From Dysidea avara (lineage: Eukaryota > Porifera > Demospongiae > Dictyoceratida > Dysideidae), in NCBI RefSeq assembly GCF_963678975.1, contig NC_089279.1, positions 27,142,004 to 27,206,003 on the forward strand: a stretch of DNA of 64,000 nt, given 5' to 3'. The notes below the pieces were generated by a model. The model was not told the DNA's origin. It worked only from the letters and a program-made list of their open reading frames with translations, and did no database searches. Made by a program: the position numbers and the translations under genes. Positions 14,754 to 62,035 of the stretch are shown piece by piece (the first letter of the stretch is position 1; each line of letters starts with the position of its first letter).

Positions 14754-14764
14754 AGATGCAAAGA

Positions 14765-15640
14765 GATAGACCTGGCTCAAAATGAGGTATAGCAATGTGG
14801 AAAATGGAGCAAGTGATACCAGTTATGGAGATAACAAGGCAACAGAGGATTAATCGCATGCAGGAATATAAGGGCAGAGATCAACAAAGTGCTTCCAACA
14901 GGCAACAGTGGGTAACAGCAGGCAACAGTTGGTAACAGCAGGCAACAGTGGGTAACAGCAGGCAACAGTGGGTAACAGCAGGCAACAGTGGGTAACAGCA
15001 GGCAACAGTGGGTAACACCAGGCAACAGTGGGTAACAGCAGGCAACAGTGGGTAACAGCAGGCAACAGTGGGTAACAGCAGGCAACAGAGGGTAACACCA
15101 GGCAACAGTGGGTAACAGCAGGCAACAGAGGGTAACAGCAGGCAACAGTGGGTAACAGCAGGCAACAGTGGGTAACAGCAGGCAACAGTGGGTAACAGCA
15201 GGCAACAGAGGGTAACAGCAGGCAACAGAGGGTAACACCAGGCAACAGAGGGTAACACCAGGCAACAGTGGGTAACAGCAGGCAACAGAGGGTAACAGCA
15301 GGCAACAGTGGGTAACACCAGGCAACAGAGGGTAACAGCAGGCAACAGAGGGTAACAGCAGGCAACAGAGGGCAACAGTGGGTAACAGCAGGCAACAGTG
15401 GGTAACAGCAGGCAACAGAGGGTAACAGCAGGCAACAGTGGGTAACAGCAGGCAACAGTGGGTAACAGCAGGCAACAGTGGGTAACAGCAGGCAACAGTG
15501 GGTAACAGCAGGCAACAGAGGGTAACAGCAGGCAACAGAGGGTAACAGCAGGCAACAGTGGGTAACAGCAGGCAACAGAGGGTAACAGCAGGCAACAGAG
15601 GGTAACAGCAGGCAACATGAAATGCTTTTATAATATTCAC
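14765..15640 (+). repeat. Left terminal inverted repeat region of the giant element
   Basis: The outer 130 bp aligns loosely, with indels, to the complement of 61676-61802. Shared pieces include AAATGAGGTAT and CAACAGTGGGTAACA. The minisatellite and then a shared TTCAYACCTGGG (near 15640) follow. Apart from the minisatellite, similarity is moderate. Confidence 0.6.
14901..15617 (+). repeat. 20 bp minisatellite, about 36 units
   Basis: The unit is GGTAACAGCAGGCAACAGTG, with recurring variants at two positions (GTG/GAG and AGC/ACC). One unit is shortened near 15370. Because 20 is not divisible by three, the array stays open in all three minus-strand frames, but this is a low-complexity effect and not a gene. 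Confidence 0.95.
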
Positions 15641-18600
15641 ACCTGGGCATCTGCACCTTATTGCTTATTAATTTTAAAGTAGACTACATTAGAGCACAAT
15701 CACAAAGATAATTAAACAGCTGTGCCATTGTATCTGATTGTAGCTAGGTGTTTAATGTAACTTTGGATATGTCTTTGTTTCCTGACTGGCAATCCTTTTT
15801 CAATTATGTTTGTAGCCAGGGTTTTTCAGAAGGAGCTCTGTCTATCAAAAATAACTTACAATACACAACCCTCAGGTGGTGACAAATCTTGAGCATTTTA
15901 ATGCATCTTTTATGAGGGGCGTGAGGCATCAACACCTTATTGCTTATTAATTTTAAAGTAGACTAGATTATTGCACAATCACAAAAGCTAATTATATTAA
16001 TTAAACAGCTGTATCATGGTATCTGATGAGAACTAGGTGTCAAATGTAATTAACCACTAATCTATAACCATACCTGTTTGTTAGAGCTCGATATCTTCTT
16101 TCCCGGTTAAGATATGATCGATCAAAGTGTTTGTTCCCATAGGCGTCTGTAATCGAAAATATTGAAGTCCCCCAATACAGATGCTATTTTAATGCTCGTG
16201 ATGTATTTGTGGATAAAGCTAATAGGTCATATTAATAGGTTCCCATAGCAGCAGGAAACCACTAAAGTTTGGGTAGTGGGGAATACATGCCTATCTAACA
16301 TTACACTTGAACCATTACTAGTAAAACATGAAAATGAACTCTTTTCTATTATTTAATTAAATGCGTGGGCGAACCAATTAGCAGGACTGATATAGTGCTT
16401 AACCATGCTATTGACTCCAAACAAAGACCAAACTGTTTCTTTAAGTAAGATCTGTAAGTTTAATTCCATGCAGTGATTTCCTAAGGGAGATAAACACAAA
16501 AACAACCAATTTTAGGCAAAAAATGGCTGTAAAGGTCACCAAAGGTAAAATCTGGGGTGGCACCCTTCTGGCATCACTTCATGTATGGTTAGGAGTAATT
16601 GTACCAAGTTTGGTGCTTTGGACCAGCGTATCACGATTTTTGTCAAATTTTGATGTAACAGACCAGACTAGTAACCCTTGTGATTTATATTCCATATGTA
16701 GTTTATAATATATTCCAGTATATAGGTTTTGGTTACACTGTGTGGGGTTTTGCTAGAGAATATAGTGCATTGACCACAGTGTTCCACCCCAATCACTATT
16801 GTACACTTGATATTTTCAGTACTGCCTGGTAAAAAGGTTTTATGCATGTCACTTTAGAAATCCATAACAAAAATTTGCAATGGTATCAGGCAGGCACTAA
16901 ACAGGCTTACACAAGTTCTCAGATTGGTGGCGAGTAAACCAAATTAAAGTGATCGAGGAAGAAGACAATGGCCATTTAATTATTTTATGGCAAGTAACAT
17001 CATGTGCTTAAGGAAAGAAACTATTCAAGCTTTATGAAATTTTAAGAAACTGTTGTTGTACAGCAAAGCCATGCTAAACATGCTTATTGCTGCCCACTGG
17101 GATGTCTGAGCACCACTCATGTACTCTGTGTTGATGCAGGAAAATCCTGAGATAACAACCTGCAGAAGGATTGTGCAGGAGTAATGGGAAGGGACTGTAG
17201 AGCTCAAAAGTTTCACAACAGTCTGAACACCACTAAGAGAGACAAGAATAAATATTTGCTTCCCTTACTAGCAACAAGGATTCTTTCATTATACAGCTAG
17301 ATAGACTGTTTTCCCATTTGACCCCAGGCCACCAGGTACTCATGATACAACTGACTATATAATTCTTATTTTTAATTGATGGCAATACTAGAGCAAGTTA
17401 GGAAATAACAACAACGGTAAACTGGCCATAACCAGGCATCGCAGTCTTTCTGTATGTTTATGAACTGATAAAGGTATCTTAACAGATTTACTTAAGAGCA
17501 CAAATGTTGTTGCTTCAGTTTGAAATACGTTGTACTTCTGGATTGAATTAAAGCATCATATTATTCAATGCAAGACAAAAGAAGAGAATGATATCAGCCA
17601 AGCTGTGGTTGTTACAAGATTTTAGAAGAATTTAATTCTGCTCTTCATGATAATCATATCAAAGCATGTGTTACGTTTGAAGAAGCTATATCAATGCTTA
17701 ACAAGTATGCAGGGGTGAATCTAGAAGCATTGTTAGGGAGCTTAATTAGGGGGGGGGGAGGGAGGACAGGATAGTACAGTGCTTATTCTACTGGCAGAAA
17801 AGAATGGCTTGTGAACAAGTAACATTTGTTTCTCATACTGTACAAGCTGTTATAGCTTGGTAAAGGATGGAGACCTTTATAATTTGAGAGTATAAGTAGT
17901 TAAGATGTTTTGATGTTGGTGTGATTTTTAACTGCATGCATAATTGATTGTACGATTATAACATTCTTAGTAGCTGAATGGATTTGGTTCTGAGAAAAAA
18001 AAATCACCCATGCAATGCACTTTCATGTATTGTTCATAGCACTGTTTAATCTAGGACAGTTCTCTGTTGGGGGGGGGGTTAGGAACTTTGGGGGTGTCCA
18101 AGTTAATGTCTGTGTGATAGCTATCACACACTGCCCATCATTTTTGGAGTTCAATGGCCACCACAAACTAACATGTCTGAAAAATAGACCAAAACTAACA
18201 ACATTTTTACATTTGTCCAATGCGTGCCAAGGATAATTTAGTTATTTAAACTCGGTATCTAAAAATCAACCTGGGAGCACTTCTGACATCATTTTGTATA
18301 TAAACAGTGCCCCTGGGTAGTTGTCACTCCAATTTTAGAGGGGGAAACTTCCCCTCCTAACAACCCTAGATTAAACACTGGTTCATAGTACCAGCATAAA
18401 TTCTCATTTCCTCCAAATAAAGCACACTGAGCATATGATTAATCCATTGTATATTTACAATACAACATGGACTATGCTACTTGCAAGTATTGCATGGGGA
18501 TACCTAAACTATTTTAAGAATGTCTGGTAAATGATATCAACATGGTTAAAACCTACATTTCAATTGGCTTATCATGCACTATGCAGATAGATATCAACTG

Positions 18601-18874: not shown

Positions 18875-19080
18875 TTATTGTTTGCACATAGGGCAGTACC
18901 ATGATGGAAGCTTTTGTGCTTCTCGTATTGTTGTAGACAGGCAGACACAGTGAAACCACTGGTCGCAACCATTGCAGCACATCATTGCAAGCTTCTTTCC
19001 TTTACGTTTGCAATAATCCGAAGGACAAATATCCTTTGATGGCTCAACTTTGTCTCTCTTCTTTTTCCTTTTTGAAGAGC
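18875..19080 (-). CDS. Last exon: basic stretch plus PHD finger
   Basis: After the acceptor CTAATGTAG the exon opens in phase 1, fitting the last mini-exon: GSSKRKKKRDK, a nuclear-localisation-like basic run. It continues with a C4HC3 PHD finger: CPSDYC, CNGCDQWFHCVC, WYCPMC, then KQ and a stop at 18875. All eight metal ligands are present, and the Trp in DQWFH is at the place used for methyl-lysine binding in H3K4me readers. PHD fingers read histone tails, so the protein probably acts in the nucleus on chromatin. Whether this finger binds modified histone is inference. The 3.6 kb intron before it could hide further exons. Confidence 0.85.
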
Positions 19081-22000
19081 CTACATTAGAATATTAGACG
19101 ATCCAGTTTCACATTAGCACACAAAATCAGTGAATTTCATGTAGCACATAACATAGAGTACAGTTAAACCATAAACATAGATTAATCATAATTATATTCA
19201 AAGTGGAGATTAGACACAGCGTCCAAGTAATAGTGTTTTAGACAATTTAAAAACCTGAGATGATGTCAATAATTACCAAGGCATAGCTGAGATAATTATT
19301 TATGTCACCAGTGGATTTTTTTTAATTCGTGAAGAGACCACTATGAGTGTATAAGTGGACAATGGCAAGCAGACAGTGACCTAGTACAGAGTGTTCATAT
19401 TGTGATTACCAAAGTGTTTTAGTCACGGTTCTAGTGCTAGGGTATTCGCAACATTGTAAGGCAAAACCATAAAGTGCTATTGGAAAGTTTTACTTGATAA
19501 AGTTTGTACTGATTTAGGCTTGAAATGTCTGGGATGTGGGGAGAATGGTAGTGAATGGGAATGCCAGACAAGCTAGCTAGTATTACAGATTGATGAATGG
19601 CTACCATATGGCTGTGTATGCTATAAACACTGAATTATATGGCTTAGTTATTAGCCTGCTACCACGATGATTGATTCAGCCAACAGAAAGCAAGTGTACC
19701 TTAGTGTGATCTCTTCTTTACAATTGTGTTCACAATCGCTTGGTGTGTGCAAATGTGCAAAATATAAAGTGTCCACAACAGCTAATTGTATTATTATGGG
19801 TCTCACTGTGGTTGTAAACAAGGCCACGTCTCTTACCAATAAGAGACCTGCTACCAAATGTCTTTGTGAATAATACACTAACACACATCAAAGGAAACAC
19901 TGCATACCATTGTCTAATGAGAGATAGTCATGCTTTGAATGTGTGTGAAGTTTCTGTGATTCGTCCAAGGCAGTGATTTTATTGTAGTATAACAAAAATG
20001 AATTTTAATTTATGCATGAGCTATCATTACCATTTTTTTTTCAGTAAAGAGAATAGAAACTGCAGTATTGTAGCAGTGTTCAAGAATTGAAACATGACTC
20101 TAAAAACAAGAGTGAAAAAAGGCATAATTCAAGCTTTTAATATGAATGACCAAAGGATTTTTAATAGTCACATGTTAATCTAGAAGATATGTGTAGATTC
20201 TTTAACAGATTCTTCAGTTATAGTTAAACCTATAACCACAAGTAGAATATCATTATTAACCAAAGCCGAGTGCAATGAGGCTGAGGTGTTATAACTAAGA
20301 AAATATCCTATGAGTGCTGGTGGGATTCAGTGGCAGATCTAGGATTTTTTAAAGGGGATTTCTGAACGTAAAATAATTGTTTAAAAATAATGAAGTATCG
20401 AAGGACATGGCTCAAGAAAATTTTAGAGTTTCTGAGATTTCTGAGATTGAAATTTAGAACAGTTTTGAGTTACTTAAATTGTGAGTAAACAAGCTAGCTA
20501 GGTAACTGAATTTGTGGCTAAGTTGCTGTTCTGATTGCTCTATTATAGTAGTTAGCTGACTGCACTATTAAAGTATATCGATCTGTACTTAATGCAATGG
20601 GTGGTGCCACCTAAGTAGGCTTTTGAAAGGGGGTTTCGGTCGAAACTACCGAAACCCATTTAGATCCGCTGCTGGGATTTAACTGGCTTTTATCCTATAC
20701 CTGGCAGCTATTAGGGGCCTTAGGCACAAAGTTTGAAGTATATTGTGGCTTGACAATGGTAAACAATACAAACTAAAGCCACACATGTCTTGCCACATGT
20801 TTACTCTTCCAGATGTTGGATAGGTAGGTAAACAGGTATTTTGTGAAATATAATGGGAGGGGGGGTGAGCTGAACAGTGACCTGATAGAAGCGTTGATCA
20901 TAGACCCTACATACAGGCTAGGGGATGCAACCTGAATGTTGCTGTGTAACTAATAGTACAGGTATACCGTATGTATATATAGAGTGTGTCATTTTCACAG
21001 ATTGGTAATTCAGCATTTTCATGATTTTATTTTTGAGAATTGGTGATACCAGGAGCACATAATCGCCCCGAATGTGTTCTTGCTGATACTATGGGTGATT
21101 TTTCTATTGTACAGCATAGTCTAAATCCTGTTTTTTTTTTGTTATTTTCTAGGAATAAAAATTCAAGCAATCTCAAAATTTTGTATGTATACGGGACATA
21201 ATATCAAGAGTTTATAAGCACTGAAGGGTGTGACACTAGTGATTTAAGCCATCCACAAACACTTTTAACCTCTAAACCATATAGGGAAGTTATTAATATT
21301 CATTGCTATTCAGTGGTTTATTGCATCATCACCTTAATCTGTTAATCATATATCATATTTGTTTTAAAGGAAGCTGTGATGAGTTAGGAGGGAGTCTGAA
21401 CAGCTTAGAAAATCATTATGAGCAAGCTCTCTCTGATGTAGTGGAGAACAATAGAACTTTATTGAAACCACACTTTCTAAGCTTGATCTACTGCGTAACT
21501 TCAACACATGCTATTTATGGCTACCTGTAATGTAAACCCAAGACCACAGCTGACATAACAGTGACTGCCCTGGTCTGCCCAGGTGGTTAACACACTCTAT
21601 ATTAAGATACATTGCATTCAACAAAAGATATAGCACAAATATATCTTGAGTGTCATGTTTCATTGCACTGTGTGGTGCTCAAAGGAGGATATCGATGTTG
21701 TCAAAGTTGGGTTGTCCAAAATTTATGTCGGTAGTAAACCCCCAGTTGAAAATATAGTGTCAGGAGATTGGGTATTTCAGAAGCATTTGTGCCTGACTGT
21801 TCTATTAGGGTGACAGAAATTAGGAAAGGGCTTAGCCCTCCCCCCCCCCCCTTAATCCACCCATAATATTTGCTAATGTACAAAGGAAATAATTAATATG
21901 TCCTTTTTTTACTAAACAGTACGCATTATTCCCTGGTATTCACTAATGTAACATTTTCAATTTGATTTGTTGGACGGATAAATAATACTTGAGTTTTGCA

Positions 22001-25000
22001 TAGACTATACAATAACATTATTATTACATGGTCAATGTTATTTGCTGCACATTGCTTTTTTGGAATTTAGCATATGATTGTATCAATGCTATAGGCAGGT
22101 CTATTTACACAGACCACCCACATCAATACCACAAAATCGATGAAAGTATAATTGCTGAAAATCAGAAGGTATGTACTGTGACAATTATGTGCCTGACTGA
22201 TGGGCATTGAAGGACAAAAGGAAAGACAATCCTAAAATGCACAGATCTATCTTTAACAAAGTTTGGAAAGTTTCTGTAAATATTTTAAGAGATATAATTT
22301 TAGCCAATTTATCAATGCATCAGAAAGGTAGTGAGATACAATGTAATCTTTAATATTCAAAACATATTGGAAAGATTGAGAAGCATTTTGATAGCCTTTA
22401 TTTCGGCTATGACACCTACCCAGTAGTACGGCAAAGAAAATCAAGATTGGTTTATTTTTTGTTGTTAATATTTTTAATAGACCACATACATACCCTGTAT
22501 ATTTCTAGTCCCTAATATAGAGAACTACCAAACTGTAAGATAAGACAGGTCAGTATTTTTGTGTTGATTATATTAATGATACAGCTTATATTAATGATAC
22601 AGCTGTGCACCACGATACCATGCTATATACTTATAAACTATAAGCTTACCACTGGCTGATTGAATTGTGGGTGCTACTGAAACTGATGCAGCCAGTACAG
22701 TTGTTGACACTGTATAAAATATAAACAGGAGACTGTCTACAAAAGCATAAGATCATCTTACCACTTGTAGATGGAGGCATCAATGTTACTGGGACATTTG
22801 GCAGAGTTGTCGACACTGAGTAAAACACAAGCAGTAACAGCTAGAAAGCAATATTAAATCATCTTACCACTAGTAGATGGAACTGTTGGTGGCATCAAAG
22901 TTACTTGGACATTGGGCAGAGTTGTCGACACTGAGTAAAATATGAGCAGCAGCAGTTAGAAAGCTGTGTATACAAACATGACCCAGGCTGTGAAAAGGAC
23001 TCTTATAGCCTTTTCAACTATGTAAACACCATAACCCATAACTTGGCTGGCGAATAAGATACGAGTCTACAATTTGGTCAGTGTTCACTCCTAACATAGC
23101 ACTAGTTGTGAATGTAATTCCAAGGTGAAAGGTTAAGTCGAGCACAAGTAATGATTTGTTAAACTTGGATATTTGGAAAGGCTGTAGGAGCCCTTTTTGC
23201 AGACTGGGTCACAAATATTAAATCATCTTACCACTAGTAGATGGAAGTATTGGTGGCATCAAAGTTACTGGGACAGCTGGCAGAATTGTCGACCCTAAAT
23301 AAAGCACAAGCAGTAGCAGTTAGAAAGCTGTATCCAATTGTCTTACCACTAGTAGATAGAACTGTTGGTGGCACTAAAGTTACTGGGACAGCTGGCAGAG
23401 TTGTCGACCCTGAATAAAATAAAAGCAGTTACAGATAGAAAGCTGTGTAGACAAATATTAAATCATCTTACCACTAGTAGATAGAACTGTAGGTTGCACC
23501 AAAGTTACTGGTAGAATTGTCGACCCTGAATAAAACACAAGCAGTAACAGTTAGAGAGCTGTTCATATAAATATTACCACTAGTAGATGGAGATATTGGT
23601 GGTGTCAGAGTTACTGGGACATATGGCAGAATTGTCGACCCTGAATAAAGCACAAGCAGTAGCAGTTAGAAAGCTGTGTATGCAAATATAAAATCATCTT
23701 ACCACTAGTAGATGGAACTATTGGCGGAACCAAGACAGTAGGCATAGTTGTTGACACTGAGTAAAATACAGCAGCAGAAGTTAGGAAGCTGTGTAGACAA
23801 ATACTAAATCATCTTACCACTGCTAGATAGAACTGTTGATGGCACCAAAGTTACTGAGACAGCTGGCAGAGTTGTTGACACTAAATAAAACACGAGCAAT
23901 AGCAGTTAGAAAACTTTACATACAAATATTAAATCATAGTACCACTTGTAGATGGAGATATTGGTGGCATCAAAGTTACTGGGACATCTGACAGAGTTGT
24001 CACTGGATAAAACATGGACAACAGCAGTTAGAAAACTGTGTATGCAAATACAAAGTCATCTTACCACTAGTAGATGAAACTAATGGTGGCGCCGAAGTTA
24101 CTGGGGCAGCTGACAGAGTTGTTGACCCTGAGTAAAACACGAGCAGCAGATAGAAAGTATACAAATACATGTATGAAATCATCTTACCACTAGTGGATGG
24201 AACTATTGGTGGCACCAAAGTTACTGGGACAGCTGGCAGAATTGTTGACACTGCATAAAATATGAGCAGTAGCAGTTAGAAAGCTGTGTATGCAAATACA
24301 AAGTCATCTTACCACTAGTAGATGGAACTATTGGTGGCACCAGGACAGTTGACATAGTTGTCGACACTGAGTATAACACTAGCAGCAGAAGTTAGGAAGC
24401 TGTATAGACAAATATTAAATTATCTTACCACTGCTAGATAGAACTGTTGGTGGCACTAAAGTTACTGGGACAGCTGGCAGAGTTGTTGACACTGAATAAA
24501 ACATGATCAGTAGCAGTTAGAAAGCTGTGTATGCAAATAAAAAGTCATCTTACCACTAGTAGATGGAACTACTGGTGGCACCAAAGTTACTGGGGCAGCT
24601 GGCAGAATTGTTGACACTGAGTAAAACATGACCAGCAGATAGAAAGTATACAAATATGAAGTCATCTTACCACTAGTGGATGGAAATATTGGTGGCACCA
24701 AAGTTACTGGGGCAGCTGGCAGAATTGTTGACACTGAATAAAACACGAGCAGTAGCAGTTAGAAAGCTGTGTATGCAAATACAAAGTCATCTTACCACTA
24801 GTAGATGGAACTAATGGTGGCACCAAAGTTACTGGGGCAGCTGATAGAGTTGTTGACCCTGAGCAAAACACGAGCAGCAAATAGAAAGTATACAAATATG
24901 AAGTCATCTTACCACTAGTAGGTGGCACCAAAGTTACTGGGACAGCTGGCAGAATTGTTGACACTGAATAAAACACAAGCATTAGCAGTTAGAAAGTTGT

Positions 25001-28000
25001 GCATTTGCAAATACAGAGTCATATTACCACTAGCAGATGGAACTAACGATGGCACCAAAGTTACTGGAGCAGCTGACAGAGTTGTCGACCCTGAGTAAAA
25101 CACGAGCGGTAACAGTTAGAAAGCTGTGTATGCAAATATAAAGTCATCTTACCATTAGTGGATGGAACTATTGGTGGCACCAAAGTTACTGGGGCAGCTA
25201 GCAGAGTTGTTGACACTGAATAAAACATGAGCAGCAATTAGACAGCTGTTTAAATTGAAATAGTTATATTCCCTACTGATAGACAACCAAAGAGTTTAAC
25301 ACTTCCATACAGATTCTTAGATTGTTATGCACAACTTATTGTCACTCCAGGTTGTCCAAGTATATATTATCTAGCCATAAAGCATATGGTTAATTGAGCT
25401 TACCAAGTGAGTCACCATCATTCTCTACAAAAGAATTATATGCAAGACTTATAATACTTGCACTAACATTACCTAGATCATCCCAATCCATATTATCCAA
25501 AAATTGTTCTGGATCTAGCAACAATCAGAATTAAAACTATGTGTTAAATTGTTAGTTCTACATAAGTACAGGTGTGTCATGTTACTGTTATAGAGTTACA
25601 GGGTTCATTACTACTATTCATACATTGTATAGTATGACGTGAGTGTGCATCAACCTTACCTTCTGTGTCAGACCTAGGATCACCTAGCAACTCAGCTATG
25701 GTGACTTGCCGGGTCGACATACTACCAGTGATTTGTGGTGTATCAGTTTCTTCTTCAACCCCAGGATGTTCTTTGTGTGGGTAGCATACTGTATATTGTT
25801 ACATTACACATACTACATGTATTACCAATTCATGAAAAATTTATCACGTACCTGAGTCTAACAGCCTTAGTAATCGTTCAGATATGTTTGTTCGGGGTAT
25901 TTGCAACACGCCTTTGCAAGTGGAAGTGTTGTTGCTGGTACAACGGGTGTCCTTGCATCCAGATTTCAGAAACCGGCATCCACCGTTGCTTTCCCCACCC
26001 ATTTGTTTGACAGCATCTTTGATTTCCTCAAGTCGTTTCTTTGCTTCGGTATTTAGGTGCTCTCTAAGTACTGGACAATATATTGATACACATAATGTTT
26101 TAGTCTTCCTCTTGAAGGTATTTGAAAGAACCATCTGTATTACCTATAAATATATACACGTAATGATAATATAATACATATCTGCAGCTTTCTCACTTCA
26201 TTTGTTGGAAGTTCCCTAATAACTTCAAGCACCTCCCATAGCACTTCTTCAACATCATTTGCTGATATTGCACTGTGTAGTTCATTGACAATGGGGGCCC
26301 ATTTCTTCACAAAAAAGTCTAGAATTTCTTCAAATGTTATAACACCTTCTATTTCATCGCAAAGCTAGAATTGCAAAGCTGAATGTTTGTAATACCTGTT
26401 AGAACACGCTTACCAGTTTCGTTGCTAAAAGGACAAGGGCATAGCCTTTCTTTGTCCGATGGTGGACATTGCTTAAATGCACTGAAATAAAAGGGAGCAA
26501 CAATTCACCGATGTATCTCCTGTTCCTTGATGACAATAGGCGATCTCTTATACTTATAATATAGCCTATTGCACTGGAAGCTGCTTTCCGGTAGTCATTG
26601 TAGCTGTCTTCAATTTCAATTTGCCTCGCTTCGTCATGGATTGACAAAGGTTCGAAAAAAGGAACATGGACAATTCTTTGAGCTTTTCTACAAAAAAAAA
26701 ATATGGGTATGCCATACATATAATATACTCTGGTGGTAGATCATGGACATGCATACATACATGGTGGTATCTCTTTACTGGTCGTGCATATATACATGTT
26801 TTTATACACATTGTGAAACTAGAGCTAACCTTTGTGTTTCAGCAAATGCAGTATTCGCAGTGACTATAATCCCTGCTTTGTGCTTTGTCTCCCCCCCTTG
26901 CATAGTAGTTGTTGAAAAATCATTGAATAGTTCTACCGTCAATTCTTCAAACTTCTTTGTACTGTTGATGTCGTCTGCCACTATTTATATATACGTACTC
27001 AGAATACCGAATGTTACCGTACACAAAGTTAACTAAACTTACCCACTGGTATCGTTGAAATTGATGCATGGTTAACTATGCTGGCAGTACTCGACCTTGC
27101 CGAGAATGCATGTTGAGCAGCTCCAAAGGTACCCAAAATATTCTTAGCTGTTGTAGATTTCCCTTAAAACATACAAAAATATAGGTTAGTAATTTTGATA
27201 TATTTTAAGCACGATAAACATGCTTGCTTATATGCATAGCTATCTGCATACAATTCATTGTAGTGAAATTATTTTATATACCTGTTCCAGAATGTTTGCT
27301 GTAGCAAAGAATAATCGGACAATCATCTTGTACCTCTTTCAGAGCTTCTGAATGAAAAACTACTAGACTTCCTGCATGTGCAATGAATGAGCTGATAAAA
27401 TTGTTGGATAGGCCTTCTTTTTCAGCAGTTATTAGTTGAACGAGAGAGTTGGTACCAAGGGGTAATTCAATTTTTAGTTCTTGAAGTTGTGTCCCATGAT
27501 GACAGTACCCAGAATACCTGCAAAAAGAGCACTTGGTTTTTACTGTCAGAACATGTATAAGCTGTATTCTAAATAAAACATTTATTCATGTTATATCATC
27601 ATGATCAGTATACAAATAAGCTTTAACCTATAACATGATAGTTAAAATGCAGTGTTGACATTTGTTACCAAATTTTTGAAAATCCCTTATATTGGTGTGC
27701 TTGAATTAATAGGAATTTTTGTGTTTAGTGAAGTACTGAGGAAAGCATATAGTGCAATTTTAAAAGATACTTCAAACATTTAAAACAATGAAAATTGTTC
27801 ACAATCATTTACAGGCAGATATGCATTAAAAACAAGCTGTTTTATAAGTAATATTTCTGGTGTCAAAACACAGCCATGTGATTGATATACAGTCACATTC
27901 ACAGTCATATTTTATTATGATTTCATGAGTTCTATATGTGAATGGCTATTTGAAAACCTCTTCTAAAATTATATTTTTTGACTATTCATACAGAGCTAGT

Positions 28001-31174: not shown

Positions 31175-31342
31175 TAAGTCCGACGAACAGAAAGCACAGG
31201 AACTACAAATAACTTTGCTGAATGCCCTAGCCGACTTATATGGAAAGCTGCATGGTTGCCGCCTAAAAAAATTACTTCCGGAAAGTTGATTGGCCGTATT
31301 GCGTCACTAGCGCATATCTACACTAGCGGTGAGCTCTCAGCT
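31175..31342. promoter_or_regulatory. Shared bidirectional promoter of the two genes
   Basis: Only 168 bp separate the start codons of the minus-strand ATPase/PHD gene and the plus-strand KDZ gene. The interval holds a palindromic ETS-type site ACTTCCGGAA (31274-31283), an ATTGG box (31289-31293, an inverted CCAAT) and a CRE-like TGCGTCA (31300-31306). No TATA box is evident. The sites are read by eye; joint expression is inferred. Confidence 0.55.
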
Positions 31343-37300: not shown

Positions 37301-38261
37301 ATGAGCTTTATCCACAATTACATCATAGCACAAAAATGGCAATAAGAGTGGGGATTGTTTGTACAGATAGCCATTAGAAGGGATAACTTTTGAGATTTTC
37401 CTCGTTAAGAAAGTGAGAGAAATCTCTGGTAAGACTTGTTTGTTAACTATCTTTCTATGTAGAAGCATGCACAGTTGCTCTTCTCGAACACTCCAGATCT
37501 GGTTTTGAAAATAAAACCAGAGCTAGGTAAGTATCTAAAAGTGTGAAAATGCATTCCCCAACAGAGTTTTCTCCTGCTGTCTTCATGGGAAACATCTCAA
37601 AAGCCTATCCCTTCCAATGGCTCTGTACAAAGTACCCCCACTTGTAATTGTGAATGAAACTCTTTTGGGACCTTTGAAATGTAGCCCACCTAACTGTGCT
37701 AGTGATGACGTGATATAACAGGAAGAGTAAATTTAATGCTAGATGGTACGTTATGCACAGAAGTATCTTCTAAACTGTTTTATAGTTTAACTATCATGTT
37801 TTTTCTCGCCAATCCTCTCAACAAAGCCTCAAAGCTGCTCTTCATTTTCATTCACGTTAGTAAAGGACATACCCACTTTCATCTCAAAGGGATAAGCTAT
37901 TCCTGGAAGTCTACAAGGCCTGCACCAATGTTTTTCAGTTATTAAATGCCTGTAAAACTTGAAGAGAAAGTAAATCAAAAAGTCTAAGGAGAGTCGTGTC
38001 ACCCATGTTTCAGCCTGCCAGAAAGAAATCACCTCAAAGCAAAGTTTACTCGTAACTGTTTATTACAAACTTCATTTCGCTTTTCTTACGTACAAGCTGC
38101 TTTTATCATTTAACGATTTTGCTCACGTAGGTGTGTATGGACCAACATAAATAAGTAGATAGGCATGCACACACACACGCACACACAGTGACCCACACAC
38201 ACTGCACACACACACACACTGCACTACACACACACGCACACACACACACACACACACTGCA

Positions 38262-38325
<64 letters not shown>

Positions 38326-38597
38326 ACACACTACACATACACATGCACACTACACACACACCACCACACACACATACACATGCTACACACTACACAGAGA
38401 CACACACGCGAACACACACACACTAATACACACATACTGCACTACACAAAGAAACACACACACACACTGCATACACAAATACACACATACACACGTACTA
38501 CACAAATACACACTACACCACACACGCTCTACACACTACACACACATGCTACGCTCTACAAAGAGACACACAGACACACACTGCACTACATACAGGT

Positions 38598-38636
<39 letters not shown>

Positions 38637-50600: not shown

Positions 50601-53600
50601 ATTTTTTCAACTAGTTATGAAGTCTCTACTATCAACCAGTTGTTAGCAGAAGCTGATGCATTGCCATCTGTCACCAAAGAACTTTGTGGAAAGCCATCAG
50701 AAAGAATCCTGTGGGAGGTAAGTATCAGTTTGTGCTTTTAAATAAATGTCAGATATGAATCTTTTATAGGCAACAATGAAACTTGGTAAACCAGTTAACA
50801 AGTTTCTTGGCCCTAAGTGTACTGAATGTCTGCAATGCTCATCAACACTGCATATCAACCACAATCCAATTACTGTCATCTGTTATATGATTAGTGGCCC
50901 TGTCCCAGCCCAGAAGATTATTTTAAGATGTAAGTCATGTGGTATCAACTACAGGTACGACTCATTTGGTGGAGATACTTTTGGTGGATACAGGTTAGAG
51001 TGTGAGCTATCATGATGCTAGATACTTGATTGTGCATGTTTCATACAGATTTTATGACAATGAAAATGACCTGGTAAAAGCATCTAATGTTTGCTATATC
51101 GAAAGAGCTCTGTGTGAAAAATGGGCTTCAGCTGGGTAAGTTATCAAGCTGTACATTACAAATTCTACCTTTCACTGGTTATGTAGCTAGTTTATGGGTC
51201 CACATGCTATGTTAATCCTGCATGTAAATTTGCTGACCATGGCAATACAGTGTTATTCAAAAATCATATGTGAATTGTCTTAGCTTGTGTGCTGTGTTCT
51301 CTAGCTCAAATGTGCAAATGTGCGTTTGTATATTTTAAACAAGTATGATTATGTGCGGTATATTTAAGCAAACAGAGCCTTAAACTTACCAATGAATTTA
51401 CTAGTATTCCACAAAATGAACTTTAATATGTGTCACATTATTTCACAGTACGTAGCTATTTCATGACTATACTTTAAAACCAACCGAAGTTTAATCTTTT
51501 GTATATGTACAGTATAAAAATGTGATTGGAAAATTTGAATTGTATGTGAAGTATTGTAGCTTCTGCAGTTCATTATTGCTAGCACAATTTAATGCACACC
51601 GTATTATTATGCAGGCATCATTGCTGGACAAGCTTTGAAGGATCTACAGAAGTATACAATGAGTGGATGAGGGAAACCAATAACTACAATTATATTAATT
51701 TAAAGTATTTTCTGAAGAAATACAACAGTGTAAACTTGAGAGCAAATGCAGTAGGTATGTTAACACAGTATAGTAACATGATTTGTTTGTACATTGGCGC
51801 TGTGCAGCTACGGAATGTATCTCCAATTAATTGGTCATAAATAATTGTTCGTAATCAGTTAATCGGTACAATTAAATACTTACTATCAAGGTGCAATTCT
51901 TAAACAGTAAATCTGTGCCAGAGTATGCTAAACTATTCTTTATTGATAAAAACATGAAATAGCTGAGACCTGATTTGCTAAGTTTATCGTGATAAGCTTG
52001 TTCAGCATGCTCTTACAGCTACTCAAAATTTCAAATATAGGTGTGCATTTCAGTAAAACTTTTGGAAGCCAATTATCAATTAGTATTATCGATTATTAGA
52101 GTTTCAATGATCTCCAATCATTTAATCAGTTGTTCAGTGAAAATTAACAGCACCAGTATGCATCTGTGTTGTTTAACTACAGTACGTATAAGGTGACTTA
52201 CAGTGGTGGTCCATTTTGTACCATTTTGATCAGCATGAAACATTTTGCCTGATTTGAGCTACCTCACATAGCAAATACAGTGTATGTTTCAGCAAAACCC
52301 AATCAATGCAGACTGGTGTACTTAACAGGTCCTCGCTTCAAACTCTCAAGTTCCTGGGGTATATAGATTTTCACTGGAACTCATTGTGAAAACCAGAACC
52401 ATTACTAGAAATTTGGGTCTATAATGTGAAGATATAGGCTTCAATGGCTTCTTGATGTAAGCAAATGCTAATACCTGGTAGCTGGTTGCCACAGTACTCC
52501 CCACCACTGAGTGAGTAGTGAACGATGCAGATGCGAAGAAGCTGCTGTGACAATGACAAAGTTAAGCCTAGGAGATTGGTTCTTACTTCACAACTACAGT
52601 TGAAAACTATAATCATACAGTAGGTTGAGTCAGTCAAGTAACCAGTTGGTGATGTGAGTTGGCTGTAAACCGTGGCCAACTGCAGCCTGGTTGGCTGGGG
52701 CCAGTTGCATGGTCAGTTAAGCTGCAGCAGTTGTCCGGAATAGTATAGCAGTTGGGGTAGCAACGTGGACAAAAATCGGTTGATTGGTGCTGCTGTGTTG
52801 TTGACAGATGTGAGCAGCTCGGTCAACTGGCTCAGTCTTGGAGACAGTAGTGTGAGCTCTGCGACATTGACAATGAGCCGGTAGGAACAGGCATTCTAAA
52901 GGTCTGAAAGCATTCCCTAGAAATTTTGGACATCCTCTGTTAATAAAATATTATAATGGAACCCTGTGAAATAAAATTGTAAGGACAATTATACTGGTCT
53001 ATATATCTCCAAAACAGTTGGAGCTTAATGTATGTGTAGAATTTACCGTCATGCTTTACAAAATGAATACATGAAATAAAATATCTGACCGGACCTGCGA
53101 AAATTGGGCATGTCGGCATGCACTAATCTCATCACAGAACAAAACATATCTCAGTGCTGGAAGAGAATATTTTCATTCTGTAACTTGCATTACATGACCA
53201 GTTAAATTCACAATAAGTGATGAACATTGCTTAGCCATAGCCAAATGACAGAAGAAATTATGAGTCAGCAAAGTTATAAAAAGTGGACAAAGTTTATGTG
53301 GCCACACGCCCTGTGTTTTGCAGGCCCGGTCACATTTTAATAATAATATATATAAAGTAATAAGTTCAGTGTGTGAGGTCTCCCTTTGCCTGGGACTTAT
53401 ATGTCAACTAAGAGATGGCTGTGTGGCTGTACAGTTTCACGGTGTTAAATATTGAGTTGCTGGTTTTGAGTACTAATTGGCTCATAACTTGGCTTATCCA
53501 TACCGATTCCCAAAATGGTGCTTTAATTTTTATGCTTTGTAAAATGTCATACCACCCTTCCACCCACTCTTGCCACTATAAAATTGAGCTTTCCTGATAC

Positions 53601-56600
53601 ATGCAGTGAGCATCGATTAAAAAAACTGTGTGAAATGGTTGTAAACGTATCAAATTTAGATATGTATGGTGGATACTCTAGCATACGTATGTAAGAAGAT
53701 ATAGTGAAATATGCGTGGCATACAGTATATGTATATAGATTATATAGTTCCAACCACACACTAGGCAATAGACCCTCTAGGTTTTGTCACCACTACATCA
53801 CATATGTACTTACATTAATGAATATATCCTACGATTTTCATAGGACTCTATAACTTCCATCTTATTGTTATATTGCACTTACTTTCAGTCATTCTTCAAT
53901 TTGTAACCTTTTAACATATGTTCAGATGACTCCCAAGAGCAACAGACTAGTCAGCTTCTGCACCGCAAGAGTGTAGCAAGTGCTTGGTGGACACATCAAA
54001 TTGAAAAAGAATTGTCTGAAGAGAATCACCGTAGTTATATTTTCAGTGGACCCCAAGCCCAAGAAAATTACATGGAAGAAGTAGACATAAAAAGGGCCAA
54101 TTCAGTTTATAAACATGAAAATTGCTCTGATGAATGCAAAAACGAGGTCAGAAATATATCAGTATGCATTTGGTTTAATGTATATAGCACATATTTTTCA
54201 ACTGTAGGATGTGGAGAATTGTGGGCCATTGATGGAAATTGGAAATTGCACTACCCTGTATGCATGTTTGATGTTGATAAAAGCGAAGATGCATTTTCCA
54301 ACAATCTAAATTATGTTAAAACATGCTCCAATGGACCTCTACCTGGAAATGCCTTTTGCTCTGAGCACTCTGAGGTGATGAAGAAGAAAGGTGTTCCTGT
54401 GACGTTAAAAGAATATCTCAACTTCAAAAAACATGTTCAATGTTTTTCAGAGAATGTTGATGTATCAGTTCAATCAGCTGCAATATGTCAGGGTATGTCA
54501 TTGTAATGTTGTCTTTAGTTTTTGTTATTAAACTCTTCATGATACATTGGTAGTTTCTTGCATACATGCTTGAACATTATTACTTTTCACTAGACTTACT
54601 ACTCCTTTCCTTATTTACATATAGTTCATCACCTTCATATACTAGCCACATGTGAGTACCGCAAAAAAGGGGTCTATTTGTGGCCAAAAAGCTAGTTATA
54701 ACTGACCTTTGGCTAGTTGTAAATGATGAATAGGCTAGTTGTAAAATGTACATGTGAGGCAAAATTAGCACAGATCATTAAAGTTTACTGTAAATAACAT
54801 TTCACTTTAAAAATACCCAATCTCAAAATAACTATTTTCAACTAAATCATTCAAGTTTATTGTATTAACAGTTTATATAAACCGTGTAGCAAACCTGACC
54901 TGCACCTATCATATAGGGGTGAGTTTACACATACTACATACTGTAGTCTGCAGTATTAGAATGAAATCAATAGACTCACATATAATGATCATGCACTAGG
55001 GTGCATGTGTTTGACACATCCTCAATAAAATAAAAAGTCGAAACAAGTTGACTTTTGTACTATAAAAATGCTCAAAGTCTTTCAACAGCTGGGCCCCCAG
55101 ACCCCTGCTACCAGTACTTTTTGTTGTAGTTGTAAAACACACACACCTTCTGGTTATGCCTCTGTGTAATATAGCGCCTCTCTCTCCCTCTGGTTTTGAG
55201 TTGGGCTAGTTGTAAAAAGTAGCTATTTTAGCCCCTGACCCAAATGACATCATCCACACAAGCATCACAATCTCACATGCATCCTAGGCAGGCCAGTAAA
55301 ACTATTGCATGGTTATGGCTTATGTAATTAAGCTAACTTGGTGATAAATTGGACAAGCCCAGGACTTCACTGGGGCATGTGAAATCTCTTAGGCAAAGGA
55401 GGTGGGATGATGTTGCTGCAGCAATATCTTTATTAAAATTGCTCCCCTTGAGAGATTGTCATCTCCTTGAGAATTACTGTTAATTTAAGCAATAAACACT
55501 GTGCCCCTCCAAACTGGGATCCCATGTCAGTTGTCAATCACTGAAAGGTTGGGTTTTTTCTTTTGACTGAAGTAGTAGGGTTGGTGGGTAGGTGACAAAG
55601 CATTAAGTAATGTAACTTGCCGATAAACAAGATAACTTGCTATTGACAAAGTACTACATGTAAATGATGTTCTGGAATGCTTTAGACTGAGCTGTAATGT
55701 GTGAAACAGGCATCCCACCATATGCAAAGGTGCTGCAAGCATATTTGTTGTGGGCTGGACAGGTCTATCCTATGCATGTCAATAACATAATCATTCTGTT
55801 CTGTTGACTTAAATGTACTGTGTAAATTAGCATTGTTTATACAACTCATGATGTCAAACACTGGCAATTCTAGACCAGACATACAGGTGGGACAGCATGA
55901 ACATTGTTATATATATATATATATATATATATAGCTGTAAATAAATAAATTTCAAACGAGTCTGGGAGTTGCACCTATGTTGCACCCCTAGAAGCTGTAG
56001 AAGTTTTAGAATTCAAATTGATACTAAAATTATTAAAAATCTCTATGCCACAACTTTTCCCATGGATTTTTAAAATTTTTCAGCATGGGATCTGCAACCC
56101 CATATAGTTGCTTTTGCACCAACATTAAAAGATGGTAGGATTTTTAAAGCATTAATAGCAGTCAAAACAAATATAGTCAAATCCTTAATAACAAAACCAT
56201 TTCAAATAAAAAACTGAATACAACCATCTATCACTTATCACAACCATCAACACTTGAGGCATTCTTGAATTTGAAATATTAAAATTATACAAAACTACAT
56301 AAGTTGATTTTGGAATCTAGGTAAGTATAGCAGTTGAAAGACTAGAAGCTAAATGACACGTGACATAATTTCCATATTTACATCGAGTCCCAGTAATTTA
56401 CTCTTAGTTGAAAGCAAAGTAAATTTTAGGTCTGATACTATTTTTGTTCCTGGCTTTCTCCGTCTTCCTGTATGGGTTAAGCCATACAACAAATTAACCA
56501 GTTTCCATCAACCAGGTACACATGATAATAGTGTAGATAATTATTGAGATACCTAGATTAAAATTATACATATGCAGAAGGTACAACTCTAGCTATATAA

Positions 56601-59208
56601 ATTGCTTGGCTTCAGTGAATTTAAAATTTATGACGAAAGTTGTCAAATACTAATCATACTTCAATAGAGAGTTTAATCCAGATTATTACATAAGAACGAT
56701 ACACCCTAGTGAAGCAGTTGCCATAACACGACTTTAGCAGTCATTCTATTAGAACAATCATTAAAAAGGAATGAAAAACTAAAATAAGGATGTAGCCAGA
56801 ATTTTTTAAATTGATGAGACAGACTGCTCTATTAGGGTATATTGATCTTGTATGACAACTTAAAACCTCTGAGCCTATCTGGAATTACTTCTGAGGTCTT
56901 CCCTCAGCATTATCTTGGGTAAACTAGATAGCATAGCTCATTAAAAGTTTATGAAAATTTTGAATAAATATAAAATGACAGATTATTTAGTTTGTCAATT
57001 CACTGAACCACCCAAAATTTCGTGAGGCAGCTGCCTTAGATGCCCATACAAGTAGCTACACATCTGACCCTGAAAGGCAACAAAAAAGAAGCAATTATTG
57101 AAGTGGAAAAATAAACCCTAAATTCCAATTTACAGACTTCACTTTCTTGCTTGTTAAAACATTTTTCAAATAAAGGTCAAAATACAATGTAGGAAATTGT
57201 GGTTTACCTTGCTGCTCTGCCAATCACTTTTAGGATAAATATTTATAAGATATCATTAATGTTAGTGTGTGCCTCAATTCCCTATACATGATAATGAGTA
57301 TAGTGTGTGAATACACCTGTGAATGCACTATGATATACCATGTGTAGCCTTAAATGGCCAAATGTATTATAAAATTAATTTAATATCCAGGAACTGATTC
57401 TGGTATTAAAAGCTATGCTGAATTTGCCAAAGCAGTGGACCAGACTGAAGAAGTGACAGCAACAAAAACTACATGTAACAAGGACACAGGAGAAAAACCT
57501 GGCACACTACAGAAGTGGACAAGAGGAACATGGTTTTGTGTTGGTGCTGGAGGCCATATAGAAAGATGGCAACCATTGTACAAGTAAGATTAAAAAAATT
57601 CAAACACATACAGTAAGCATGCACATCACAGAACTTCAATAACTGGAATGTTGTGATTCACTATAATTCTGTGCTACTGCAGTGGCGGATCCAGGATGGG
57701 GCATTTGGGGCAAATGCCCCCCCCCCCCCCCCCCCTTCAAGAAATTGCATACAAGATCGAGATACTCTAATAGAGCAGTCAATTACTCTAATAAAGCAGT
57801 CACAATGTTCATGAGGCAGTGTAGCTTACCTATGAAGCTATAAATAGGATTTTATTTTACATAACAGACGTGATATAGTTGGTAAGGATAACTAGCTATT
57901 ATTGTCGAGACCTTTTTTTTTTTTTTTTTTTTTTTTGGTCTTCAGTTTTTTTTGGTCTTCAACTGTTTTTCAGAAAGGTGCCCCCCCCTCTTTCCAAACT
58001 CTGGATCCGCCCCTGTACTGTACATAATTATTTAGTAGAAGGACATTATTTTAGAATGTGCTAGATGGTCCTGCTGGTAGGGCAGGTATCTATGCAAGAA
58101 GAAAGGTAAAACACAGAAGACAGACACTCTTTGTAACTAGAATGGGTACATGCCACTCATTGTGGCCTGAAATGGTGGCCGTTTGTTGCATCTATGAGCC
58201 TCTAACTTAGGATCATTGATCAAACAGGCAGAGGAAAATCCGGGTTGTCATCTTTTCTTGTTGTAGAGCTGCATATGATTTAGATATACTAAGTTGGTGA
58301 CCTTTCTTGCTTATTTTAATTCCAAGGGGTATTTAGACAAAACATTTTAGTGGTGCATATCACTTTTGCGGGGAATCCTATTAAAACATTACTACAGCAC
58401 CAGAGGCATAACATGGGGGTTATCATCCCTTGATACTTTGTACACACATGGTAGCTGTCAAAATGCTGTTATTGTATAAAATGTGACTGTATTTGCAAAA
58501 AGGTACTACTTTCCCACATACAATTTGACCCATTTGTGAACTTTAAAACTTTGTAACTTTTGTATCAATGCTGAAATTTGTTTTCTATTTTCCATGATTA
58601 AACCTACTTTATTTTCATACCGCCAGTGCAGAGAAGTAGCAGTTGTTTAATGACATGTCAATGTGTGGAAAAGGTGTTCTTTTTACAAATCTGGTCACGT
58701 ATTACATAGTTACTGTTATTTTGTTTGTAGGTCGGAGGGTCCAGCTCAAGTTTTCATGTTAGTGGTGATGTGGCTAGTGTGCCAGTTTGGAACTAAAGGT
58801 CGAGATGCTTGGAAAACACTGACCATATCTTATGATAATATGTGTCACCTCAATAATTTGCGAGTTTCTCGCTTACCACTACCATTACCAAATGACTTGA
58901 AATATATTTGGTTAGATGTGAACAAAGTTATTGATGATTTCCATATGAAAAATCATCGTGGTGCTTCCTGTAAACAGAAGTATAGCTCAGAAAACCTACG
59001 TAAAGCTAAACCAGATTTGAATACGATGGCATGTGAGCAAACATTTGCATGGTTGAGCCGCTTTAAGAAGATACTTTGTGCCATGCCAAAGACACATTTT
59101 CATTTCTTTTTACACCGAATGATAAAGCGTCGCAACAAATATATTTCTTATTGCTATGCTAATGGATTAAGAGTTGTGGCTCCAAAGCCAAAGACAACTG
59201 ACAGTTGA
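31343..59208 (+). CDS. KDZ-family (Kyakuja-Dileera-Zisupton) transposase with CxC cysteine clusters
   Basis: Exons: 31343-31661, 50470-50717, 50770-50993, 51049-51135, 51615-51754, 53926-54492, 57391-57583, 58731-59208 (stop TGA), about 750 residues. Phases join at every border. Exon 1 is basic (RKGRKRK), then acidic and Ser-rich, and splices directly to exon 2 across the palindrome. Exons 3-5 carry Cys clusters as in KDZ-associated CxC domains: CTECLQC, LRCKSCGINYRY, ALCEKWASAGHHCW. Exon 6 reads CGELWAIDGNWKLHYPVC, then CSNGPLPGNAFCSEH. The last exons read TRGTWFCVGAGGHIERW, YDNMCHL, DDFHMKNHRGASC and CEQTFAWLSRFKKIL. The likely catalytic residues are Asp (54231), Asp of YDN (58834) and Glu of CEQ (about 59037). 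KDZ proteins cut and move DNA by a DDE mechanism. No nonsense change is seen. In exon 6 a 61 base stretch (54147-54207) looks like an intron, but only reading through keeps the frame. Confidence 0.8.
31662..33849 (+). other. Left part of KDZ intron 1
   Basis: Starts with a GTATAT donor. It holds a tandem duplicated piece (CATGAATATTTCATAATGTT at 32935-32985) and AT-rich sequence. A 90-codon frame at 33016-33288 has no recognisable domain. Nothing else was found. Confidence 0.5.
33890..33955. repeat. 66 bp GC hairpin near the left end of the palindrome
   Basis: AAACGGTAAAGTAAATAGGC and onward is followed, after a TGC loop, by its exact complement. The stem core is GCGCTTCGCGCGC. The 31 bp stem is perfect. 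Confidence 0.9.
36237..36818. mobile_element. Pogo/Tigger-like MITE in the left arm
   Basis: It starts CAGTGGAACCTGTCTATAAT and ends with CAGGTTCCACTG, with TA on both sides. Inner repeats of GGTGACCGCTTAAT lie near the right end. The ends resemble non-autonomous pogo/Tc1-mariner elements. Confidence 0.7.
38168..38890. repeat. CA-rich microsatellite, left arm
   Basis: ACAC runs with interspersed ACTACAC and ACTGCAC. Long open frames of alternating Thr-His or Val-Cys across it are low-complexity artefacts. It is longer than its partner in the right arm. Confidence 0.9.
40420..43170. repeat. Central satellite of the palindrome
   Basis: Units of about 44 bp contain ACACTACTAGTTACACACTG and TAGGGTGATGATGTCACTAC. 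They run in one orientation to about 41660 and in the opposite orientation after it, so the array itself is an inverted repeat with the symmetry point of the whole element inside it. No protein is encoded. Confidence 0.9.
44020..44412. repeat. GT-rich microsatellite, right arm
   Basis: Reverse-complement partner of the CA-rich stretch at 38168-38890, shorter by about 300 bases, with the adjoining 38900-39540 segment of the left arm also missing here. Confidence 0.9.
45751..46315. mobile_element. Pogo/Tigger-like MITE in the right arm
   Basis: The mirror copy of the element at 36237-36818 at the same relative place in the other arm, also flanked by TA. Its presence in both arms means it was inserted before the arms were duplicated or was copied between them. 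Confidence 0.7.
46806..47683. mobile_element. CAGGGGCGGATC-family element, copy 3
   Basis: It begins CAGGGGCGGATCTAGG, ends GGATCCGCCCCTG, and is flanked by CAGTG on both sides (46801-46805 and 47684-47688). It is present only in the right arm of the palindrome. The left arm at about 35745 shows the empty site. Confidence 0.85.
50280..50345. repeat. 66 bp GC hairpin near the right end of the palindrome
   Basis: The counterpart of the hairpin at 33890-33955, with loop GCA and one mismatch in the stem (TACTG for TACCG). Confidence 0.9.
50470..54492 (+). CDS. KDZ gene exons 2-6: cysteine-cluster region and first catalytic Asp
   Basis: Exon 2 is mostly helical (LLIQLSQHVP, LLAEADALPSV). Exon 3 has C-x2-C-x2-C and C-x2-C pairs followed by NYRY; this pattern (Cys pairs, then aromatic residues, then a Cys-Trp segment with VYNEWMRETNN) is the one found before KDZ catalytic domains. 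Exon 6 carries AIDGNWKLH, the motif with the first acidic residue, and a further Cys/His set (VCMFD, TCSNGP, FCSEH). The donors and acceptors are GTAAGT/TATAG, GTTAGA/TACAG, GTAAGT/TGCAG and GTATGT/TTCAG. The intron at 51755-53925 has no recognisable content. Confidence 0.8.
54493..57390 (+). other. KDZ intron (2.9 kb)
   Basis: From a GTATGT donor to a TATCCAG acceptor. It holds a (TA)n run at 55908-55933, three GGCTAGTTGTAAA pieces around 54670-54745 and 55205, and a diverged copy of the ACTGCTCTATTAG motif at 56821. No exon was recognised. Confidence 0.55.
57391..59208 (+). CDS. KDZ gene last two exons: catalytic core
   Basis: Exon 57391-57583 ends in GAGGHIERWQPLYK and the following exon continues SEGPAQVFMLVVMWL, which corresponds to the C-G-x-I...EL...SES...QVY stretch of metazoan KDZ proteins. 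YDNMCHLNNLRVSR holds the second Asp, IDDFHMKNHRGASC the conserved His/Cys, and NTMACEQTFAWLSRFKK the Glu. FFLHRMIKRRN closes the domain, and the protein ends PKPKTTDS. The intron between the two exons holds a MITE (57680-58015). Confidence 0.85.
57680..58015. mobile_element. CAGTGGCGGATC-family MITE, copy 4
   Basis: It begins CAGTGGCGGATCCAGG, ends CTGGATCCGCCCCTG, and is flanked by TACTG at 57675-57679 and 58016-58020. It contains C-runs and a T-run. It lies in the last intron of the KDZ gene. Confidence 0.85.
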
Positions 59209-61189: not shown

Positions 61190-61802
61190 GAAATATTGTA
61201 TTGCTCCCAGGTATGAACTTAGACCATTGTTGCCTGCTGTTACCCTCTGTTACATGCTGTTGCCCACTGTTGCCTACTGTTACACACTGTTAACTTCTGT
61301 TGCCTGCTGTTACCCACTGTTGCCTGCTGTTACCCACTGTTGCCTGCTGTTACCCACTGTTGCCTGCTGTTACCCACTGTTGCCTGGTGTTACCCTCTGT
61401 TGCCTGCTGTTACCCTCTGTTGCCTGCTGTTACCCACTGTTGCCTGCTGTTACCCACTGTTGCCTGCTGTTACCCGCTGTTGCCTGCTGTTACCCCCTGT
61501 TGCCTGCTGTTACCCACTGTTGCCTACTGTTGCCTGCTGTTACCCACTGTTGCCAGCTGTTACCCGCTGTTGCCTGCTGTTACCCACTGTTGCCTGCTGT
61601 TACCCTCTGTTGCCTGCTGTTACCCACTGTTGCCTGCTGTTACCCACTGTTGCCTGGTGTTACCCACTGTTGTTTGATGTTATGCAGTTGGTAGTATTCA
61701 TAGGTGCACACAAGGATATTAACATGGTTGTTACTATTGTAACCAGTAACAAGCAGTCTAATTTCCAAACTTACATACCTCATTTCAAGCCACATATGTA
61801 GA
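61190..61802 (-). repeat. Right terminal inverted repeat region of the giant element
   Basis: Read on the minus strand, it opens TCTACATATGTGGCTTGAAA and passes into the 20 bp minisatellite, ending with a shared CATACCTGGG near 61210. It mirrors the left end, with a shorter minisatellite (about 22 against 36 units). Confidence 0.6.
61227..61674 (-). repeat. 20 bp minisatellite, about 22 units, inverted relative to the left array
   Basis: The unit on the plus strand is CACTGTTGCCTGCTGTTACC, the reverse complement of the array at 14901-15617, including the same variant positions. Outer units near 61250-61300 are more diverged. Confidence 0.95.
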
Positions 61803-62035
61803 CAAAGACAGTGAGGGGCCATGTTGCACAACTGATAACACTTACAAAGTCTAGTATTTTACATTGTGACTTAGAGCCAATCATGGTTCTCTTCCACTCG
61901 CTTCCACTACTATTAAATCACCTCGTACTGATCACGAGATCAGTCGATGGTCTACCGGAAATAGGATCATCGAGACTATAGTGATTCCACTTTGAAAAAT
62001 ATGTACTGTTATACAAAGGCGTGAATACCAATGCA

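Follow-up and report, generated by a model that had tools for sequence, protein, structure and literature searches.

Organization of the locus

The DNA analysed here (the window) is a stretch of 64,000 nucleotides from contig NC_089279.1 that holds 47,038 bp of inserted DNA: an outer element of about 30.5 kb, most probably a giant transposon of the KDZ superfamily, and a palindromic element of 16.5 kb nested within it. The outer element carries two divergent spliced genes, one for a transposase with a CxC5 and a probable KDZ domain and the other for a P-loop ATPase that ends in a PHD finger. Its borders are set by a local 273-bp repeat that is present once intact and once interrupted:

12526..12798, plus strand: intact 273-bp repeat, the empty site, found by comparing the window with itself
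14534..14764, plus strand: left piece of the split repeat, with the CAAAGA target duplication at its end (14759-14764)
14765..61802, plus strand: inserted DNA, 47,038 bp, made up of the outer element (~30.5 kb) and the nested element (16.5 kb)
61803..61850, plus strand: right piece of the split repeat, with CAAAGA at its start (61803-61808)

The intact copy aligns with the left piece over 231 bp with one difference and with the right piece over 48 bp with none (blastn of the window against itself, E = 3e-118 and 1.6e-20, respectively). CAAAGA is the exact overlap of both pieces within the intact copy; 231 + 48 - 6 gives 273, and the split copy is therefore complete. The initial annotation had proposed both the repeat split at 14764/61803 and the 6-bp target duplication at the two break points; the former is confirmed base for base and the latter by the junction alignment. 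An empty site and a target duplication, the general criterion for a DNA transposon, are both present. A duplication of 8 bp with one later mutation is possible but less simple, as that reading needs one mismatch. The same annotation described a single insertion of 47,038 bp, of which the exact borders and the 6-bp duplication stand, whereas the inserted DNA proved composite, with a palindrome that has a duplication of its own. As a point on the other side, the borders of the outer element are known from a single copy, with junctions read from assembled sequence.

Assemblies of outbred animals can hold alleles laid in tandem or false palindromes, and the arrangement could stem from such an artefact, either with the two alleles of a heterozygous site, one empty and one filled, placed in tandem or with a false palindrome. 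However, the likeness between the repeat copies ends sharply at the outer edges of the 273-bp unit, where alleles would match further; because similarity ceases there, we see no extended haplotype duplication, and alleles laid in tandem were rejected. The palindrome arms, in turn, differ by ~2% and carry insertions in one arm only (see below). The published D. avara assembly was made from HiFi reads (PMC12909245). We consider an assembly artefact highly improbable.

Of the 279 positions compared in the flanking repeat a single one differs (0.01-2.0% at the 95% level), which makes a recent outer insertion likely but not firm. This low divergence is the part of the earlier claim of recency that holds; the claim is weakened by possible gene conversion between 273-bp repeats lying 2 kb apart, which could maintain their likeness, and by a transposase frame that is one base short relative to homologues.

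Ends of the outer element

Inside both borders lie related sequences in inverted orientation:

14773..14790, plus strand: left terminal inverted-repeat (TIR) core, TGGCTCAAAATGAGGTAT, 8 bp inside the border
61775..61792, minus strand: right TIR core, TGGCTTGAAATGAGGTAT, 10 bp inside the border
14899..15617, plus strand: left subterminal 20-bp minisatellite, 36.5 copies
61224..61672, minus strand: right subterminal 20-bp minisatellite, 22.5 copies, inverted

The core common to both ends reads TGGCTyrAAATGAGGTAT, and the minisatellites share one 20-bp unit in opposite orientation, which bears out the earlier description of the ends as inverted, related and carrying the same minisatellite. The end-against-end local score is 17, compared with a maximum of 14 among 20,000 shuffles, but 18 of 20,000 pairs of 40-bp stretches drawn at random from the window also reached 17. 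This figure counts against the transposon reading, as do the outermost 8-10 bp, which do not match each other, and a search of viral-contig and genome-contig collections with the exact 28-base minisatellite pattern, which returned no match. The outer element ends in GA..GA with imperfect TIRs, and the TIR by itself would offer modest evidence.

The transposase gene

To the right of the palindrome, the plus strand carries the body of a transposase gene:

50490..59208, plus strand: KDZ transposase gene body with CxC5 and KDZ domains (homology, Pfam)
50490-50717, 50770-50993, 51049-51135, 51615-51754, 53926-54146, 54208-54492, 57391-57583 and 58731-59208, plus strand: transposase exons
31343..31661, plus strand: possible first coding exon of the transposase, with a basic start (weak; an Amphimedon KDZ protein matches at E 0.008 in pairwise comparison)

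Two of the eight exons flank a 61-nt intron (54147-54207), which the scored model kept by reading 53926-54492 as one exon, the frame staying open through the intron. The CxC5 domain (PF18718) scores 58.3 bits against a cutoff of 26.9, and the spliced model spans positions 40-217 of 217 of the KDZ profile (PF18758), in agreement with the KDZ-type transposase of the initial annotation. On the other side, the KDZ match itself lies just under the cutoff (25.3-25.4 bits against 26.6, E ~1e-5), the whole-frame Pfam scan missed the domain, and the AlphaFold model of the clam transposase was unusable (mean pLDDT 34.4). The candidate exon at 31343 has no Pfam match.

The homology search yielded four proteins out of 4,528 candidates, all four with a precomputed CxC5 annotation. 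The Dysidea avara protein, in a cluster of 16 members, matches at 94% across 66% of the query; the others are a protein from Amphimedon, one from the clam Ruditapes that aligns with 98% of the query, and one further protein. In tblastn on the transposase gene, the clam protein matches four stretches and the Dysidea protein six. Three acidic residues, putatively catalytic, were compared across five aligned sequences. All five share the D in DGNWKL (clam, DSCWKL; P0004, DGLWKL). The D of SYDNMC is found in four of the five and the E of ACEQ/AAEQ in two, in both cases all those that reach that position.

The copy in the window is one base short, in a run of A, before intron 54147-54207, where P0001 and P0004 read RGCG, P0003 RGCK and P0002 KGCG. 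With its transposase frame lacking this base relative to the homologues, the window copy may be non-autonomous and dependent on transposase from other copies. We give even chances to a copy that was, or would now be, moved by transposase made elsewhere. The Ectocarpus giants, whose transposase gene is frequently broken by prediction (PMC12477816), agree with such a copy, but sequencing error may account for a base lost in a run of A, the frame is open through that intron when unspliced, and the modelled exons of both genes are otherwise open.

Whole-frame Pfam scans covered both strands of 15620-28601, 50400-60301 and 33850-38162 and a single strand of 28420-31202 (minus) and 31300-33842 (plus), and in these parts the PHD finger was the sole family above cutoff inside the element; matches to zf-FPG_IleRS, COMM_HN and Sa_NUDIX fell below cutoff and were taken as chance. 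Scans of viral contigs with the transposase and ATPase alignments confirmed none of 36 and 330 pattern matches, respectively.

The ATPase/PHD partner gene

Divergently from the candidate first exon of the transposase runs a long gene on the minus strand:

18875..31174, minus strand: ATPase/PHD gene (homology, Pfam), with exons between 31096 and 28313 still incomplete
31174-31096 (probable first), 28313-28029, 27517-27282, 27162-27043 (Walker A, SGTGKST), 26980-26830, 26687-26414, 26364-26197, 26143-25852, 25788-25660, ~25514-25473, 25424-25404, the micro-exons and 19080-18875, minus strand: ATPase/PHD exons
22650..25215, minus strand: tandem array of ~121-bp units, each with one in-frame micro-exon of 51-63 nt
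18875..19080, minus strand: last exon, with the PHD finger (PF00628, 32.7 bits)
31175..31342, strand not applicable: gap of 168 bp between the predicted divergent start codons, presumably a shared promoter

The Walker A motif SGTGKST is interrupted by an intron and followed, further on, by an ADDI motif, a long repeat region and the PHD finger. All 18 micro-exons that were delimited have lengths divisible by 3, and a looser pattern finds 19 acceptors and 19 donors. The array at 22650-25215, listed as a minisatellite by repeat finding, codes for a repeat linker through these micro-exons.

An annotated Dysidea avara protein, P0005 (809 aa), is 99% identical over 57% of the ATPase/PHD query; it has ~20 micro-exon units in the same order as the window, and its PHD finger matches, with two residues changed nearby. 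The partner gene claimed in the initial annotation is thus real, with a near-identical annotated counterpart and a scoring PHD finger, and on sequence comparison the models of the divergent transposase and ATPase/PHD pair are backed by annotated Dysidea proteins. The near-identity of these proteins to the window points to a Dysidea sponge; as they are not identical to it, the window represents another copy, allele or individual. The ATPase/PHD cluster of 6 member sequences, taken with the 16 of the transposase, gives no more than a hint of copies. Other relatives are short proteins, from two ATPase homology searches in which the 7,999 and 7,996 candidates with the most shared words were scored.

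Giant elements often hold additional genes (PMC12477816), and the ATPase/PHD gene might be passenger cargo with no part in transposition, which we regard as possible, at somewhat more than a third of our weight of belief. Against cargo speak the divergent pairing, with only the 168-bp gap between predicted start codons (both first exons being tentative), the frame kept in every delimited micro-exon and the near-identical gene in the Dysidea annotation.

Nested and neighbouring elements

At least three smaller insertions and one very large one interrupt the outer element:

33850..50383, strand not applicable: nested palindromic (foldback) element, 16,534 bp, ends GATCCGTG...CACGGATC, arms ~2% apart
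33844..33849, plus strand: left target duplication of the nested element, TGACAT
50384..50389, plus strand: right target duplication of the nested element, TGACAT
18040..18380, strand not applicable: nested 341-bp element with the 8-bp duplication GTTCATAG (scan)
28661..29293, strand not applicable: nested 633-bp element at a TTAA site, within the incompletely modelled 5' part of the ATPase gene (scan)
57680..58015, strand not applicable: nested ~336-bp element within the last intron of the transposase gene, its 5-bp duplication being TACTG (by eye)

TGACAT forms a direct repeat on both sides of the palindrome, which continuation of the arms would not yield. Between the arms, 148 of 6,595 positions in the alignment are mismatched (2.2%; MAFFT, split at 41650). 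Two insertions, one of 736 bp (in TTAA) and one of 883 bp, are confined to the right arm, and a CA-rich stretch of 861 bp is confined to the left. Because of its own duplication and these arm differences, the palindrome is a second, nested insertion and not a plain fold-back artefact; a fold-back error of the assembly was likewise rejected on the two right-arm insertions together with the arm divergence. Without the palindrome and its duplication, the outer element measures 30,498 bp. If the exon at 31343 is the first, the palindrome perhaps sits in intron 1 of the transposase. A kinship of the palindrome with the outer element was rejected, their ends having only GAT in common (by eye). No Pfam family turned up when the first 4.3 kb of the left palindrome arm was scanned in six frames.

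The entire 47 kb, palindrome included, may have transposed as a unit, the palindrome being already nested in the parent copy, and we place this at slightly below even chances. Nested insertions in the Ectocarpus giants are generally fixed among copies (PMC12477816), and arms that have drifted by ~2%, against one flank difference in 279, fit a palindrome that predates the outer insertion, if it formed where it is now located. On the other hand, arm divergence dates the formation of the palindrome, not the insertion here, and a single flank difference leaves the wide interval given above.

A near-perfect GC-rich hairpin of 67 bp lies near each palindrome end (33889-33955 and 50279-50345). The arms contain long CA/GT repeats (38168-38887 and 44028-44406), with smaller length differences besides the 861-bp one, and the centre is dense in 43-bp minisatellites.

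Outside the insertion, a foldback element of ~1.5 kb with 0.5-kb inverted ends (86%) occupies 13019-14527, between both 273-bp copies, and 62824-64000, beyond the right border, is a 93.5% copy of 13031-14206. The window also contains an open, LINE-like reverse-transcriptase frame of 506 aa at 3398-4915 (PF00078, 106.7 bits) and, on the minus strand at 600-881, a SAP-domain reading frame (PF02037, 40.7 bits).

Classification and known KDZ systems

Polintons (Mavericks) make 6-bp target duplications, as does the element described here. Their size of 15-25 kb, up to 40 kb (PMC6431247), would also accommodate it. The window element, however, has a probable KDZ and a CxC5 domain, and no polymerase B, integrase, protease or capsid appeared in the Pfam scans, which covered the element in part and missed the weak KDZ domain. 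With no matching genes in the scanned parts, a Polinton was rejected, and we find this identity scarcely credible.

The KDZ superfamily fits, as the 6-bp duplication falls inside the reported KDZ range of 4-8 bp (PMC12810828, PMC12730594). The named subgroups do not fit, because Zisupton and Dileera have duplications of 8 bp and Kyakuja has one of 7 bp, with CA..TG ends and no TIRs (PMC12730594), compared with 6 bp, GA..GA ends and imperfect TIRs in the sponge element. With these three the element probably shares the KDZ domain, and with Zisupton also the multi-exonic gene structure (PMC12730594, PMC9297572). Cryptococcus KDZ1-KDZ3 combine, as the sponge element probably does, a KDZ domain with a CxC cysteine cluster, and the 6-bp duplication lies within the 4-8 bp of KDZ2 and KDZ3; these fungal elements differ in their size (9-11 kb), their TIRs of 139-241 bp and in having CxC1 rather than CxC5 (PMC12810828).

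Closest in size are the giant KDZ elements, which reach 30.3 kb in Ectocarpus and include a 31.7-kb element that moved in Chlamydomonas (PMC12477816). The sponge element resembles both in superfamily and in its ~30 kb, and the Ectocarpus giants also in its nested unrelated elements, its extra gene and a transposase that is frequently predicted to be broken in those giants and may be so here. Unlike these giants, it has an animal host, a CxC5-type transposase, an ATPase/PHD partner and a 16.5-kb palindrome that raises the insert to 47 kb. The initial annotation held a giant KDZ element with such a partner to be undescribed; since KDZ giants of ~30 kb are published (PMC12477816), the claim is softened as to size, and what stands is the pairing. 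Neither a sponge KDZ element nor one paired with an ATPase/PHD gene came up in the available text of the open-licence literature, and as far as that literature was searched the pairing of the two genes is the new part.

Proposed mechanism and significance

As to anatomy and class, we favour with good confidence a cut-and-paste KDZ transposon of ~30.5 kb, of CxC5 type, in Dysidea avara or a close relative; this confidence does not extend to a role of the ATPase in target selection. The outer element inserted at CAAAGA inside one copy of the local 273-bp repeat, duplicating the 6 bp. In the proposed mechanism, terminal repeats and subterminal minisatellites would serve as the sites at which the transposase binds the ends before cutting and joining. 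The ATPase would bridge transposase and chromatin much as ATP-dependent target selectors do, in the simplest case by bringing the complex to chromatin.

Tn7-like elements encode the AAA+ regulator TnsC beside their transposase, and the sponge element is similar in encoding its transposase next to an ATPase proposed to choose the target. Unlike TnsC, the sponge ATPase ends in a PHD finger, and the analogy is functional, without a demonstrated sequence relation. The fingers nearest to it in sequence belong to KMT2D and KMT2C/MLL3, followed by CXXC1 and SPP1; the 29 matches also include TAF3 and KDM5A. Several of the matched fingers bind H3K4me3.

Several findings weigh on the other side. No Pfam family exceeds the cutoff in the ATPase model (DUF5906, nSTAND3 and RNA helicase appear at E 0.04-0.18), and in an ATPase relative DUF927 reaches E 0.003, still under cutoff; a PDB sequence search with the ATPase gave no match, and the AlphaFold model of an ATPase relative was unusable (mean pLDDT 34.0). 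The PHD matches also take in the fingers of AIRE and UHRF1, which read unmodified H3, so the finger may read either form of H3. We consider it possible, but rather doubtful, that the PHD finger of the ATPase reads a histone tail. More speculative still, and in our view unlikely, is a complete two-protein animal KDZ machinery, in which the transposase would be joined by a P-loop ATPase whose PHD finger reads histones and sits on a long repeat linker of ~20 tandem micro-exons. Such an ATPase would select targets in a chromatin-guided, ATP-dependent way, as the eukaryotic equivalent of TnsC/MuB, and the machinery would be able to move 47 kb, including the 16.5-kb palindrome, in one event.

The locus offers a probable giant KDZ transposon of an animal, in which an internal control places the two borders to the exact base, and its micro-exon array is a clear case of a coding tandem repeat that resembles a minisatellite. 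The pairing of a transposase with an ATPase/PHD gene suggests chromatin-guided targeting and, should other copies also keep both genes, would make site choice by a eukaryotic cut-and-paste element directly testable.

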